Made by a program: the position numbers and the translations under genes
Shown here: positions 919 through 17,186 of the stretch, piece by piece
How the letters are laid out: each line of letters opens with the position of its first letter
Position numbering within the stretch: position 1 is the stretch's first letter
Assembly: GCA_005881025.1 (NCBI GenBank)
Contig: VBFO01000112.1
Span: 1-45,237 of the forward strand
DNA from: Chloroflexota bacterium
Lineage (GTDB): Bacteria > Chloroflexota > Dormibacteria > Dormibacterales > Dormibacteraceae
DNA length: 45,237 nt
Direction of reading: 5' to 3'
The notes under the pieces: generated by a model
Databases searched by the model: none
Told to the model about the DNA's origin: nothing
Seen by the model: the letters and a program-made list of their open reading frames with translations, nothing else

Positions 919-1795
919 AGTGGTCGTAGCCGCGCAGGTTCAGCTGCAGCGGCAGGCCCTCCCTGTCGGTCACCGTCAGCTGGCGCTCGGCGGTCAACAC
1001 GCCAATGGGTTTGAGGCCTGCTTTGCGGATGACAGCTTCGGGGCCGGTGCAGACCAGTTCCACCTCCTCCCCGCTCGACAGCGCCTCCTGCCAGGTGGCG
1101 CCCGCCGCCACCGGCACGTCTGGTGCGCGCAGCAGGCAGCCGGATCCGGACATGACGGCGAACTTCTCCATCTCCTTGATGAGGCCGTCGGAGATGTCTC
1201 CGCAGCAGAGCCCAAGCTCGTTGAGGCGCTTGCCCTCTGCGAGCCGCGGCTCGGGCCGCAGCACGTGTCGAGTGCGCAGAGCCACCGCCGCCGTACCGAG
1301 TGGACCGGTCACCGCGACCGCCCAGCCCGGTCTCGCTTCGCTGCGCGGCAGCGGGCGATGCCTGGCCGTCCCCGCCACGGTGATGGAGAGGACCGCCGGG
1401 CCTTCGATGGCACTCATGTCGCCGCCGACGATCATCAGGTTGGTCTTTTTGGCAAGGGCGGCCATGCCTTTGAAAAGCGCGACAAAGTCCTGCTGCGGCC
1501 ACGACCGCGGGACGGCGACTGAGGTCAGCGCCCACACAGGCGTCGCGCCTTTGGCCGCGAGGTCTCCGAGCGCGAGCGCAAGCGCGCGCCAGCCTGCGTC
1601 TTCAGGGGTCATCCACGAGAGGTCGAAGTGAACCTTCTCCACCGCCATGTCGGTGCTGGCGACGGTGTACGCCCCGTGGTCATCCCACGCGGCGGCATCG
1701 TCCTCCCCTGCCGCGATCGCAATGCCCTGCGTGGTGAGATAGGGCGTGATCAGCTTGAGGAGGCCGGCCTCGCCGGCGCCCGCAACTGACGTCAT
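911..1795 (-). CDS. thiL: Thiamine-monophosphate kinase
   Basis: ThiL phosphorylates thiamine monophosphate with ATP to give thiamine diphosphate, the last step of cofactor synthesis. The 294-residue protein shows the PurM/ThiL-family pattern: GEDDAA near residue 30 for metal and ATP binding, STDMAVEKVHF, ALGDLAAKGATP, GGDMS in the middle and GDISDGLIKE near residue 205. The ATG start overlaps the thiE stop (ATGA), so the two thiamine genes are coupled. GGDMS and ALGDLAAKGA differ slightly from the commoner GGDTT-like and SDLAAMGA-like forms I recall, but the acidic metal ligands are kept. High confidence. Confidence 0.95.
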   Translation of the reverse strand: MTSVAGAGEAGLLKLITPYLTTQGIAIAAGEDDAAAWDDHGAYTVASTDMAVEKVHFDLSWMTPEDAGWRALALALGDLAAKGATPVWALTSVAVPRSWPQQDFVALFKGMAALAKKTNLMIVGGDMSAIEGPAVLSITVAGTARHRPLPRSEARPGWAVAVTGPLGTAAVALRTRHVLRPEPRLAEGKRLNELGLCCGDISDGLIKEMEKFAVMSGSGCLLRAPDVPVAAGATWQEALSSGEEVELVCTGPEAVIRKAGLKPIGVLTAERQLTVTDREGLPLQLNLRGYDHFA

Positions 1796-2415
1796 GCGTC
1801 CAGCATCGCACGCAGGCGGCGAGTCACCGCCTCGGGGTTGGCGGCGCCGCCGATGGCTCTGATTACACAGACGCGACGGATCGCGCGCGAGGTCAGCTGC
1901 CCGAGGTTTGACTCATCGATGCCACCGATGGCGAACACCGGCACCCTCGCCGCCTTGGTGACCGCAACGACGACGTCCGGACCTATCACCTCTTTCTGCG
2001 GCTTGAGCGGGGTCGCGAAAGCTGGGCCGCAGCCGATGTAGGATGCGCCGCTTGCGACGGCTGCCTTTGCCGCTGCGGGCGTTGACGCCGACGCCCCGAT
2101 CAACATGGCTTCGCCGGCGACTTTTCGCGCCGACTCGAGGCTCAGGTCGTCTGGCCCGAGATGGACGCCGTCGGCGCCCACCATCATCGCGATGTCGACA
2201 TGGTCGTTGACGATGAAGAGCGCGCCGGCTGCGGCGGTCGCCTCGCGGAGCCGGCCCGCCACCTCGAGCAGCTCACCTCGCGGCAAGGACTTGTGGCGGA
2301 GCTGGATCACATCGGCGCCTCCGCGCAGGGCGGCCAGGGCGATGGCGAGGAGGTCTTCGGGATCTCGATCCGCCGTGATGACGTACAGCCGGGCCGAGTC
2401 TAGGCTTCGGTTCAG
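1792..2415 (-). CDS. thiE: Thiamine-phosphate synthase, probable CTG start
   Basis: ThiE joins HMP diphosphate and the thiazole phosphate to form thiamine monophosphate, the substrate of the adjacent ThiL. Visible motifs are VIQLRHK, FIVNDHVDIA, GADGVHLGPDDL, GASASTPAAA, IGCGPAFATPLK and VFAIGGI, the standard TIM-barrel series. The track starts at an internal GTG (2310), which would delete the first beta strand. The frame extends upstream as DSARLYVITADRD, an obvious ThiE N-terminus. The only plausible start before the upstream in-frame stop is CTG at 2415, which forms a CTGA overlap with the anti-sigma stop. That gives 207 residues, the usual length. Product is certain; start is inferred. 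Confidence 0.92.
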   Translation of the reverse strand: MNRSLDSARLYVITADRDPEDLLAIALAALRGGADVIQLRHKSLPRGELLEVAGRLREATAAAGALFIVNDHVDIAMMVGADGVHLGPDDLSLESARKVAGEAMLIGASASTPAAAKAAVASGASYIGCGPAFATPLKPQKEVIGPDVVVAVTKAARVPVFAIGGIDESNLGQLTSRAIRRVCVIRAIGGAANPEAVTRRLRAMLDA

Positions 2416-2630
2416 CTCAGGATCTGGCGGAGCTTCTCGCGGAAGGCCGCGGGGGCTGTGTCGCAGTCACACGAGTGCTTGATGAGGCGCTTGAGGTGCG
2501 TCTGGAACTCGTAGCTGTCCATGCAGTCGGGGCACCCTTCCAGGTGCAGCTGCACCTCGAGGACCTCGGTGCTGTTCAGCTCGCGGTCTACGTAGCGATC
2601 CAGCTTCTCCTTACAGTCGGGGCAGTTCAT
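2412..2630 (-). CDS. Zinc-binding anti-sigma factor (RsrA/ZAS type)
   Basis: A 72-residue protein with the zinc anti-sigma (ZAS) signature HLEGCPDC (H-x3-C-x2-C) near residues 29-36, an N-terminal CPDC pair and a late CDCD. It resembles RsrA and mycothiol-system anti-sigma-R proteins, which hold a sigma factor in the reduced, zinc-bound state and release it on disulphide stress. Its ATG overlaps the sigma-factor stop (ATGA), the normal cognate-pair arrangement, and its stop overlaps the proposed thiE start. Redox sensing is inferred from the cysteines and the partner; it could respond to another signal. Confidence 0.88.
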   Translation of the reverse strand: MNCPDCKEKLDRYVDRELNSTEVLEVQLHLEGCPDCMDSYEFQTHLKRLIKHSCDCDTAPAAFREKLRQILS

Positions 2631-3208
2631 TGGGTCGGCATCTCTTTGTTACTGGCGCGCACGATACCTGATTCCACAGCGTACTCAAAGAGGCTCTTTT
2701 GGAGCTGCTGGCGGGCCCGGTGGAGGCGGGACATGACAGTCCCGATCGGCACCCCGAGCGTCTCGGCGGCGTCCTTGTACGAGAAGCCTTCGACATCGAC
2801 CAGGAGCACCACCTCACGGTGGAGCGGGGGCAGCTCTTCGACCGCCGCCACCACCTCGGAGGCCGCCATCTTGTCGAGCACGTCAGCCTCCGGCTTGGCG
2901 CCCTCGTCACGGAGCTTGTCGTAGAGGACGAACTCACCCACGTCGTCCAGGCTCACGTCCTCTTTGCGCGACCCTTTGAAGCGGTCCCAGAAGAGGTTGC
3001 GCATGATGGCGAAGAGCCAGGCCTTCATGTTGGTGCCCGTCTGGTAGCTGTGCTGGTAGCGGAGGGCGCGAAGGTATGCCTCCTGGACCAGGTCCTGCGC
3101 CTGGTCGGGATCGCGCGTCAAGCGCAGCGCGCCGCGATAAAGGGTGTCGAGGTGCGTCAGCGCTTCTTCGGCGAATGTGGTTGGAGCCTGGCTTTGGCTT
3201 TCCGCCAT
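2627..3208 (-). CDS. ECF RNA polymerase sigma factor, SigR/SigH-like
   Basis: A group-IV (ECF) sigma factor. Region 2 is visible as HLDTLYRGALRLTRD followed by AQDLVQEAYLRALR and NMKAWLFAIMRNLFWDRF. Region 4 is ELPPLHREVVLLVDVEGFSYKDAAETLGVPIGTVMSRLHRAR, a helix-turn-helix that reads the -35 element. I start it at ATG 3208 (193 residues) rather than the track's TTG at 3250, because that TTG lies inside the candidate promoter -10. No strong ribosome site is visible at either. The downstream ZAS anti-sigma and a sigma-R-like promoter in front suggest redox control with autoregulation. Confidence 0.9.
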   Translation of the reverse strand: MAESQSQAPTTFAEEALTHLDTLYRGALRLTRDPDQAQDLVQEAYLRALRYQHSYQTGTNMKAWLFAIMRNLFWDRFKGSRKEDVSLDDVGEFVLYDKLRDEGAKPEADVLDKMAASEVVAAVEELPPLHREVVLLVDVEGFSYKDAAETLGVPIGTVMSRLHRARQQLQKSLFEYAVESGIVRASNKEMPTQ

Positions 3209-5279: not shown

Positions 5280-6359
5280 TCAGTCTTTGTAGTGCAGCTC
5301 CACGCGCCGGCCCAGCGAGGTCAGGACCTCATACGAGATGGTGCCCGACCAGCGTGCCACCTCCTCCGCTGTGATGCGCTGGTCGCCATCGCGGCCGATT
5401 AGCGTGACCACGTCCCCGGGCTGAACACCCTCGATGCCGGTGACGTCCAGCGTGATCGCGTCCATGCTGACGGTGCCGATGAGCGGGGCGCGGTGGCCTC
5501 TTATGAGGACGTCGCCGCGGTTGGAGCGGATGCGGAAGACGCCGTCGGCATAGCCGATGGCCGCGGTCGCGACGCGCGATCTTTCGCGTGCCCGCCAGGT
5601 GGCCCCGTATCCGACAGTGTCGCCTTTGTTCACCGTCTTCAGGTGCGTGATGACCGAGCGGAGGGTGAGCGCCGGCTCGTTGCCCGACCACTGGCAGCCG
5701 TAAAGCGCGATCCCGCAGCGGACGGCGTCGAGGGCGTACTCCGGGAAGTGGCGCGCCCCGGCTGAGTTGCATGCGTGCCTCAGCCCCGGGTCCACGCCCA
5801 GCGATTCAATTGCCTGGGTGAAGCTGTCGAACTGATGGCGGGTCATGGCGGCGTCGCTGTCGGCGGAGGCGAAGTGGGTCCAGGTTCCGGCGAGCCTCAC
5901 GGCTGAGGATTCGTTGATTCGCCTGGCGAGTTTGGGCGCTTCCTCGGGCTGGCAGCCGAAACGGCCCATGCCGGTGTCGATCTTCAGATGTACAGGCACT
6001 ACCTCGTCTGCCCGCGACAGCGCGTCGACCATCTCCTCGCTCCAGACGCCAATCGAGCAGCCGCTCGTGGCGGCAGCTGAGGCGTGATCCGGCGTCATCC
6101 CGCCCATGACGAGGATGTGCTCGGCGGGCACGATGCCTCCGAGCTCGCGCGCTTCGGCGAGGGTCGCGACTGCGATTCTTGTGGCCCCGCCGTCGAGCGC
6201 GGCGCGGGCGACCCTGGTGGCGCCGTGACCGTAGCCATCGGCCTTGACGACCGCGATCAGGTGCGTTTGCTGCGGCAGGTGCTCGAGGATGCGGGCGGCG
6301 TTGGCGCGGACGGCGCCGAGGTCGACCTCCGCCCAGCGAAGACGGTCGGTGGCCGTCAG
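5280..6359 (-). CDS. alr: Alanine racemase, probable CTG start
   Basis: Alr interconverts L- and D-alanine with pyridoxal phosphate, supplying D-Ala for peptidoglycan. The frame upstream of the track's GTG start (6131) reads RWAEVDLGAVRANAARIL and then VVKADGYGHG, which carries the PLP-binding lysine, so the short track version would be inactive. No ATG, GTG or TTG lies in frame upstream of 6131. The fitting start is CTG at 6359, forming a CTGA overlap with the stop of the acpS-nnrD fusion, giving 359 residues (normal length). Other family motifs are FGCQPEEA, GTWTHFASAD, AIGYADGVFR, GTVSMDAITLDV and a C-terminal YEVLTSLGRRV. The product is very secure; the start is inferred. Confidence 0.93.
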   Translation of the reverse strand: MTATDRLRWAEVDLGAVRANAARILEHLPQQTHLIAVVKADGYGHGATRVARAALDGGATRIAVATLAEARELGGIVPAEHILVMGGMTPDHASAAATSGCSIGVWSEEMVDALSRADEVVPVHLKIDTGMGRFGCQPEEAPKLARRINESSAVRLAGTWTHFASADSDAAMTRHQFDSFTQAIESLGVDPGLRHACNSAGARHFPEYALDAVRCGIALYGCQWSGNEPALTLRSVITHLKTVNKGDTVGYGATWRARERSRVATAAIGYADGVFRIRSNRGDVLIRGHRAPLIGTVSMDAITLDVTGIEGVQPGDVVTLIGRDGDQRITAEEVARWSGTISYEVLTSLGRRVELHYKD

Positions 6360-7606
6360 AGGCCGCCCTGGCGAAGAACGTTCATCACCAGTGGGATCTC
6401 GTCGAGAAGGTCGCCGGCCAGTAGTCCGGAGTCGCCGAGGCGCTGCGCGATCCTCCGGCCCGCCGCCGCGTGCACGTAGACGCCGCTGACTGCGGCGGTG
6501 TAAGGGTCTTCGCCTTGCGCCATGAGGGCGCCGATGATGCCGGCCAGCACGTCACCGGTGCCGCCGGTGGCCAGGGCGGGAACCTCATGGGGGTCCTCGC
6601 TGCAGCGACCGTCGGGGTGGGCGACCACTGTATGCGCGCCTTTGAGCACAACCACCGCTCCCCACTCCTTGGCGGCCTTGCGCGCGGAGCCGGGCCTGTC
6701 GGCGTTGATGGCCTCGGCGGTCCTGCCGGTGAGGCGGGCCATCTCGCCGGGATGGGGGGTGAGGACGCGCCTTGGTCCGAGCTTGCGCTTGGTGCGCGGC
6801 GAGTCGGCCAGGGCGTTGAGCCCGTCGGCGTCGATGACCATCGAGCAGTCGGCGTGGGTGGCGAGGTCGACCACCAGGCGCCAGGTGGAGCGGTCACGGC
6901 CGAGGCCGGGGCCGATGACGGCGGCGGAGGCGTCTGCAAGCTGGCGGAGGATGGTGTCGTGGGCGGAGTGGCCGACCACACCGGGCGCCACCTCGGCCAC
7001 CGGTGTGGCCATGACCTCGGTGACCTTCGCCGCCAGGATGGGATAGATGGTCTCGCCGATGAGCAGGCGGACGAGGCCGGCGCCGGTGCGGGCGGCGGCG
7101 GTGGCGGTGAGGTAGGCGGCGCCCGTGTAGCCGAGGCTGCCGGCCAGGACCACAAGAGTGCCAAAGGTTCCTTTGTGGGCGTCTTTGGGTCGTTCTGGCA
7201 GGGTGACCGCGTCGGGGGCCGGGAGGAGGTCGGTGATTGCCTGGGTGGGTTCGTTTCTCTCCGGCATCTCGAGGTGAGAGGTGGCCATGGCCAGCCGGCT
7301 GTGGTGGGTGATGCTGACCTCGACGCGGGCGCCGCGGGCGTCGCCCCCGATGAGCCTGACGCGGGGCGCGCCCATGGGTCCGGGGAGGACCTCGATGCGC
7401 TTTCTTGGAAAACAGATTCCTGTGCCGTCGAAGCATTTGATGACGGCTTCCTTGGCCGCCCACCGTCCGGCGAGTCGCTCGGGGTCGCCGGCGCAGTAGG
7501 CCAGCTCGGCGGGGGTGTAGACCTTGGGGAGGAAGCCGGGGCCGGAGCGCTTGACCGCGAGCGCGATCCGCTCGACCGAGACGGCGTCCACCCCGATGCG
7601 CTGCAT
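6356..7606 (-). CDS. Fusion: holo-ACP synthase (AcpS) + NAD(P)H-hydrate dehydratase (NnrD)
   Basis: A 416-residue two-domain protein from ATG 7606. Residues about 1-118 are AcpS-like: IGVDAVSVERI at the start and RWAAKEAVIKCF near residue 50, the Mg/CoA site used to transfer 4'-phosphopantetheine to acyl carrier protein. Residues about 140-416 are the ADP/ATP-dependent hydrate dehydratase that repairs damaged NAD(P)HX: GTLVVLAGSLGYTGAAYL, IDADGLNAL, LTPHPGEMARL and ATGGTGDVLAG, the nucleotide-binding signature. The NnrE epimerase domain, often fused to NnrD, is absent. The track start at 7792 is rejected because it reads through intergenic repeats. There is no clear Shine-Dalgarno. Its stop overlaps alr. 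Confidence 0.9.
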   Translation of the reverse strand: MQRIGVDAVSVERIALAVKRSGPGFLPKVYTPAELAYCAGDPERLAGRWAAKEAVIKCFDGTGICFPRKRIEVLPGPMGAPRVRLIGGDARGARVEVSITHHSRLAMATSHLEMPERNEPTQAITDLLPAPDAVTLPERPKDAHKGTFGTLVVLAGSLGYTGAAYLTATAAARTGAGLVRLLIGETIYPILAAKVTEVMATPVAEVAPGVVGHSAHDTILRQLADASAAVIGPGLGRDRSTWRLVVDLATHADCSMVIDADGLNALADSPRTKRKLGPRRVLTPHPGEMARLTGRTAEAINADRPGSARKAAKEWGAVVVLKGAHTVVAHPDGRCSEDPHEVPALATGGTGDVLAGIIGALMAQGEDPYTAAVSGVYVHAAAGRRIAQRLGDSGLLAGDLLDEIPLVMNVLRQGGL

Positions 7607-7645
7607 GGTTGTTAGTAAGGTACCGCGTGGTTCCGGACCGCGATT

Positions 7646-16484: not shown

Positions 16485-17186
16485 TCAGCCGGCGAGCTTG
16501 TCCTGCAGCTTGATCACGTCTGCTGCGGGGACCCCGGCCGCGGCGATATACGCCTCCACCCCACCCCACCTCCGGTGGACGTGCTCGAGCGCGCCGAGTA
16601 TCCACTCCGGCGGGCAGCGCAGCTCGTCGCGCATCGCCTCCAGGCGTTGAGGAGGCGCAGAGGCGAGCCACTCCGCGTAGCGACCGGCCAGGTGCACATC
16701 GGTCTCGGCAAAATCGGCAGCGATAGCGTCAGGAGGCACGCCCGCAAGGGAAAGGACCACCGCCGCGACCAGGCCCGTGCGGTCCTTGCCCGCGTAGCAG
16801 TGAAAGACGACAGGGCCTTCGACCCGCGCGATCGCACTGACCACCTGGCCGAACGCATCCTGCCGGCCGTCCAGCATGAGCCGGTAGCGCTCGTCCATGG
16901 CGGCCACGTCCGCGATCTTGCGTCCGAACTCGTCGTCGAGCACCGGCACGTGCACGTACTCGGGCCCGTAGTCCGGCGCGGCGAACGGGCTGGGGAACTT
17001 CGCCACCTCGGACTCGCTGCGCAGGTCGATGACTGTGGTGACGCCGTAGTCCCACATCGCCTGCACGCCGGCCTGGTTCAGGTTCGACACGTTGTCGGAA
17101 CGCACTGCGACGCCGCTGCGGGTCTTCCCACCTGCGAGCGGGAGGCCTCCGAGGTCGCGCGCGTTTCGACAGTCGGGCCAGTCCAG
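16485..17186 (-). CDS. Tyrosine-phosphatase-like protein (HCxxGKDRTG), probable CTG start
   Basis: A Cys-based phosphatase of the bacterial tyrosine/dual-specificity (lipid-phosphatase-like) type. The P-loop is VVFHCYAGKDRTGLVAA with catalytic Cys and Arg. The track's GTG (17105) truncates a conserved N-terminal region; the open frame reads WPDCRNARDLGGLPLAGGKTRSGVAVRSDN, matching the NFRDLGG...RSD pattern typical of the family. The only candidate start upstream is CTG 17186, 23 nt after rpsI, giving 233 residues. It is the last gene of the ribosomal super-operon, possibly by accident of position. Substrate (phosphotyrosine or phosphoinositide-like) is unknown. Confidence 0.85.
   Translation of the reverse strand: MDWPDCRNARDLGGLPLAGGKTRSGVAVRSDNVSNLNQAGVQAMWDYGVTTVIDLRSESEVAKFPSPFAAPDYGPEYVHVPVLDDEFGRKIADVAAMDERYRLMLDGRQDAFGQVVSAIARVEGPVVFHCYAGKDRTGLVAAVVLSLAGVPPDAIAADFAETDVHLAGRYAEWLASAPPQRLEAMRDELRCPPEWILGALEHVHRRWGGVEAYIAAAGVPAADVIKLQDKLAG

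Follow-up and report, generated by a model that had tools for sequence, protein, structure and literature searches.

The alanine racemase gene alr in the window, by which we mean the whole 45,237-nt stretch analysed here, is probably translated from the CUG at position 6359 by termination-reinitiation with a relaxed restart codon, an arrangement that would be a regular layout in its lineage. The MAG that contains the window, as its contig 42, is a Ca. Dormibacterota genome of 2.6 Mb with a completeness of 87%. In alr, as in dozens of other genes here and in relatives, translation appears to start at a CUG overlapping the preceding stop codon. The features at the alr junction are the following:

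5280..6359, minus strand: alr (alanine racemase), 359 residues from the CTG; Pfam PF01168 and PF00842, PDB sequence matches, coding onset
6357..6359, minus strand: candidate alr start codon CTG; sequence, and CTGA in 22 of 30 family genomes
6356..6358, minus strand: acpS-nnrD stop codon TGA, sharing two nucleotides with the CTG (4-nt gene overlap CTGA); sequence
6356..7606, minus strand: acpS-nnrD fusion, upstream gene of the coupled pair; PF01648 (ACPS) and PF01256 (Carb_kinase) in one frame
6243..6245, minus strand: AAG, encoding the lysine that binds PLP, residue 39 counted from the CTG; VVKADGYGHG motif
6129..6131, minus strand: GTG, first standard start in the alr frame; product of 283 residues without the lysine
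6363..6369, minus strand: AGGGCGG, weak Shine-Dalgarno (SD)-like stretch; duplex energy −6.4 kcal/mol with the anti-SD

The open alr frame extends from 6551 to 5280 on the minus strand and contains no ATG, GTG or TTG between 6551 and GTG 6131. This GTG lies 76 codons downstream of CTG 6359 and past the lysine codon (AAG 6245-6243) in AVVKADGYGHG, as expected from the sequence-only reading, which had placed the PLP lysine upstream of every in-frame ATG, GTG or TTG. Pfam assigns both Ala_racemase_N and Ala_racemase_C to the product, and the lysine of the family motif VVKA(D/N)(G/A)YGHG is kept only if the protein is read from the CTG; so read, its alignment to solved alanine racemases sets in at residue 6-8. 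A self-trained coding-potential scan places the coding onset exactly at 6359. The coordinates of the proposed CTG start within a CTGA overlap were thus confirmed, and the layout is kept in relatives. The upstream gene, in which acpS and nnrD form a single-frame fusion (6356-7606, minus strand), has an ATG at 7606, near its coding onset at 7609. The two genes are co-directed and overlap by four nucleotides, as is typical of reinitiation pairs with such overlaps, with CTG in place of their ATG or GTG (or TTG).

We inspected the nnrD-alr junction in 30 family genomes; close homologs belong to MAGs from soil that carry the names Chloroflexi bacterium or Candidatus Dormibacterota. CTGA stands at the alr start in 22 of the 30, from 7 genera, and ATGA or GTGA in none of the 30. 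The contigs are MAG-derived and the genomes related, which limits the statistics, as the counts are not fully independent. The remaining junctions include TTGA (L010), TGATG (L034, L035), GTAG (L031), ATAG (L033), a TAG followed by CTG (L021), a CTAG with a CTG nearby (L008) and a contig edge (L032). An in-frame stop is found about 14-15 codons upstream of the alr CTG in L017, L019, L020, L037, L038 and L041, and between this stop and the conserved tryptophan none of them has an ATG, GTG, TTG or ATH. Sequencing or assembly error was ruled out as the source of CTGA, since numerous independent MAGs share the identical overlap.

Between the nnrD stop and the RWAEVDL motif of Alr lie 11, 14, 17, 20, 23 or 29 nt, all in a single phase with L021 as the sole exception. 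Such phase-keeping indels are expected if the stretch is translated as alr from the overlap onward. Across the whole family, Alr alignments show 55-73% identity and begin within the first 8 residues. Further, the terminal leucine of nnrD is encoded by CTC in every CTGA genome, at genome-wide leucine codon frequencies of 49% CTG, 36% CTC, 8% CTT, 5% TTG and 1% CTA (p ~8e-4, treating the seven genera as independent). Since each of the alternative synonymous third bases would make the restart codon GTG, TTG or ATG, the C appears to be maintained.

The same layout recurs in a second gene of the window, thiE, as had been noted from the sequence:

1792..2415, minus strand: thiE, second CTGA case, CTG 2415-2413 over TGA 2414-2412; PF02581, coding onset 2418
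2412..2648, minus strand: short ORF that precedes thiE and overlaps it; coding score 26

The first standard start of thiE lies 36 codons further on. About half of the relatives examined also have CTGA at thiE, and the others have a GTG or ATG nearby. For ackA, the CTG of this genome (G000) and of L231 falls in the exact alignment column that holds the ATG, GTG or TTG of most orthologs. Pfam domains begin close to the CTG in a number of further genes: at residue 2 in purN and aidB, 3 in an NAD epimerase, 5 in pgk and sixA, and 11 in prmC.

To survey CTGA pairs, we scanned 1.01 Mb of the 2.6-Mb genome with a codon log-likelihood model trained on its own long frames. As a measure we used D, the drop in score from the best coding onset to the best one that an ATG, GTG or TTG can reach, and took D>=5 to mean that a gene has no usable standard start. 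Pairs were on the same strand, with the downstream gene in the −1 frame at the TGA, and CTGATG was left out of the CTGA class. Genes with D>=5 made up 15 of 41 CTGA pairs versus 10 of 201 pairs in other phases (Fisher p ~2e-7), and there were none among 150 ATGA, GTGA and TTGA pairs or among 21 CTGATG pairs. As controls we took 350 kb from each of two conventional high-GC replicons, Cupriavidus metallidurans CH34 and Sinorhizobium meliloti pSymB, and none of their CTGA pairs reached this threshold; the difference to G000 and G010 taken together has p ~0.003, with only 17 CTGA pairs in the controls. A different criterion, with more noise, counted pairs in which no standard start fell within 10 codons of the onset and gave 20/41 versus 3/17 in the controls (p = 0.04). 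Elsewhere, CTGA pairs with D>=5 numbered 2 of 8 in a same-family genome, 2 of 5 in a genome from another family within the class (one being a clear rdgB-like gene) and 0 of 3 in a third family.

The sequence-only reading had held that coupled CTG initiation is regular in this organism, to be seen genome-wide as an overrepresentation of CTGA overlaps at genes that look truncated, and on about 1 Mb this excess was indeed found. The counts suggest a regular, conserved CTGA layout in ~2% of the genes of the lineage, or about 15-21 clear cases per Mb. Judged from these layouts, CTG use is not limited to one organism: it is conserved across the family and also present in a further family within the class.

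A wider form of this explanation, compatible with it, is that any NUR triplet over the stop serves, with CUG as the commonest non-standard one; we consider this possible but on balance doubtful. Single genes speak for it. In L007, thiE has CTA (CTAG), and the 14 codons read before it contain no NTG; in L042, alr has CTA (CTAA), with an in-frame stop shortly upstream. A DUF72 gene shows ATA (ATAG or ATAA) across several genera as well as in one genome from another family (f3), and a polyprenyl synthase gene shows GTA (GTAG) in at least 5 genomes. NTAR pairs lack a usable start in 9 of 61 cases, compared with 10 of 201 (p = 0.02), but a stricter threshold leaves 4 of 61, so that the statistics are weak, and NTAG overlaps overall are not in excess over other phases. 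The polyprenyl synthase genes, moreover, also carry a CTG six nucleotides after GGAGGT; this competing CTG apparently stems from the conserved C-terminal end of the protein encoded upstream, leaving GTA versus CTG ambiguous. Only tentatively might one propose that Dormibacterota restart on any NUR (CUG, AUA, GUA, CUA) sharing two nucleotides with the stop, in which case the stop and not the identity of the start would set the position.

The DUF72 gene at L125:9375 (plus strand) and its orthologs L251, L252, L254, L264, L265 and L279 have an apparent ATA start over TAG or TAA; in-frame TGAs in the DUF72 matches proved ordinary, as they are located past the true gene end. The polyprenyl synthase gene at L099:10742 (minus strand) and its orthologs L281, L282, L287 and L288 have a GTAG overlap and no standard start upstream.

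CTG could also be a fourth general start codon in these genomes, with or without an overlapping stop, but this we regard as unlikely. It would account for fmt, rnc and a phosphatase of the window, which have a CTG near a stop but not on it, and for the alr ortholog of L021, where the CTG directly follows the TAG. In fmt and rnc (L083:9381, plus strand, and L122:1127, minus strand), the apparent CTG start lies 10-32 nt after the upstream stop, and the Pfam domain of fmt begins at residue 2 from its CTG. The phosphatase has no usable standard start:

16485..17186, minus strand: tyrosine phosphatase Y_phosphatase3; PF13350

Its Pfam match covers the open frame from residue 109, the first standard start is at residue 134, and candidate starts are CTG 17186 or a CTA at the CTAG overlap with rpsI. 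Against a general role, SD-led CTGs near coding onsets occur at chance level (17 observed, 18.9 expected), whereas SD-led ATGs are strongly enriched (71 observed, 15.6 expected) and GTG and TTG are enriched too. The lack of enrichment for SD-led CTG indicates that its use is tied to the stop overlap. In addition, genes without a usable standard start cluster in CTGA pairs, at 15 of 41 compared with 26 of 445 uncoupled genes.

A third possibility, that a −1 frameshift at the nnrD stop yields an AcpS-NnrD-Alr fusion and makes a start codon unnecessary, is very unlikely. It draws on the position of alr in the −1 frame of nnrD, with overlapping frames, in nearly all relatives, but neither CTC TGA nor its variants are slippery, the corresponding column holds true start codons in ackA orthologs, and other alr orthologs have TTGA or TGATG at the junction. 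That alr begins at GTG 6131, the first standard start in frame, or that the gene is degraded, is hardly credible, as this would strip 76 residues, with the PLP lysine and a portion of Ala_racemase_N among them, from a region conserved throughout the family.

For termination-reinitiation at the overlapping CUG, we build on what is directly observed: a conserved CTGA layout, genes that lack standard starts, more such cases than in the controls, and no excess of SD-led CTG. Reinitiation itself is invisible in sequence, and we infer its steps as follows. The ribosome terminating acpS-nnrD at the UGA would stay on the message, slip back by one nucleotide and restart in the −1 frame on the CUG overlapping the stop, probably using the usual fMet initiator tRNA and with fMet as the first residue. 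CUG may be retained because a weaker restart codon keeps the downstream protein below the upstream one.

The SD contribution in these pairs appears variable. Its energy is −6.4 kcal/mol for alr, where the AGGGCGG stretch doubles as coding sequence for the nnrD C-terminus (QGGL), there is none for thiE, and the CTGA group as a whole is similar to the ATGA group. A normal CAU initiator tRNA with C1:A72 is present, and an initiator tRNA with a CAG anticodon was not found among the tRNAs read, a subset of those present. Loss of IF3 was rejected as a general cause, IF3_C being present in 58 of 61 genomes searched; the G000 assembly gave no match to IF3 (PF00707), probably due to assembly incompleteness. 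tRNA-Leu is expected to have a long variable arm; at L099:12672-12745 (plus strand), ARAGORN predicts a 74-nt tRNA-Leu(UAA) without one.

If termination-reinitiation at CUG is the correct reading, coupled reinitiation reaches beyond the standard start codons, and a bacterial lineage has a non-standard start as a conserved layout rather than as an accident. Gene finders restricted to ATG, GTG and TTG would then truncate or misplace ~2% of the genes of Dormibacterota MAGs, including those for Alr, AckA, PurN and Pgk. The layout would also offer a test of how much weight the identity of the start codon carries for a ribosome already engaged on the mRNA. The literature we searched yielded no paper on start codons in Dormibacterota.

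The infC gene starts at ATT or ATC. The sigR gene of Streptomyces has a GTC start (PMC5472188). As would hold for CTGA, these are conserved non-standard starts that reduce translation and are overlooked by gene finders, and by analogy sigR is the closest functional counterpart of a conserved weak start; unlike CTGA, both are single IF3-controlled genes that are not tied to a stop overlap and do not form a genome-wide layout. Termination-reinitiation at 4-nt overlaps of the ATGA and GTGA type has been described by Huber et al. (2019, PMC6728339) and in a follow-up of 2023 (PMC10666635). The CTGA pairs resemble those pairs in being co-directed, with a 4-nt overlap, the downstream gene in the −1 frame and an apparently variable SD contribution, but both surveys count ATGA or GTGA. 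A term search of the two papers found no mention of CTGA, and the 2023 survey gives G as the third position of all start codons. CUG starts in prokaryotes are otherwise rare, only 2 of 61,358 ancestral AUG starts having become CUG (PMC5622118); what appears there as a rare switch is a codon that the CTGA lineage would keep across genera.
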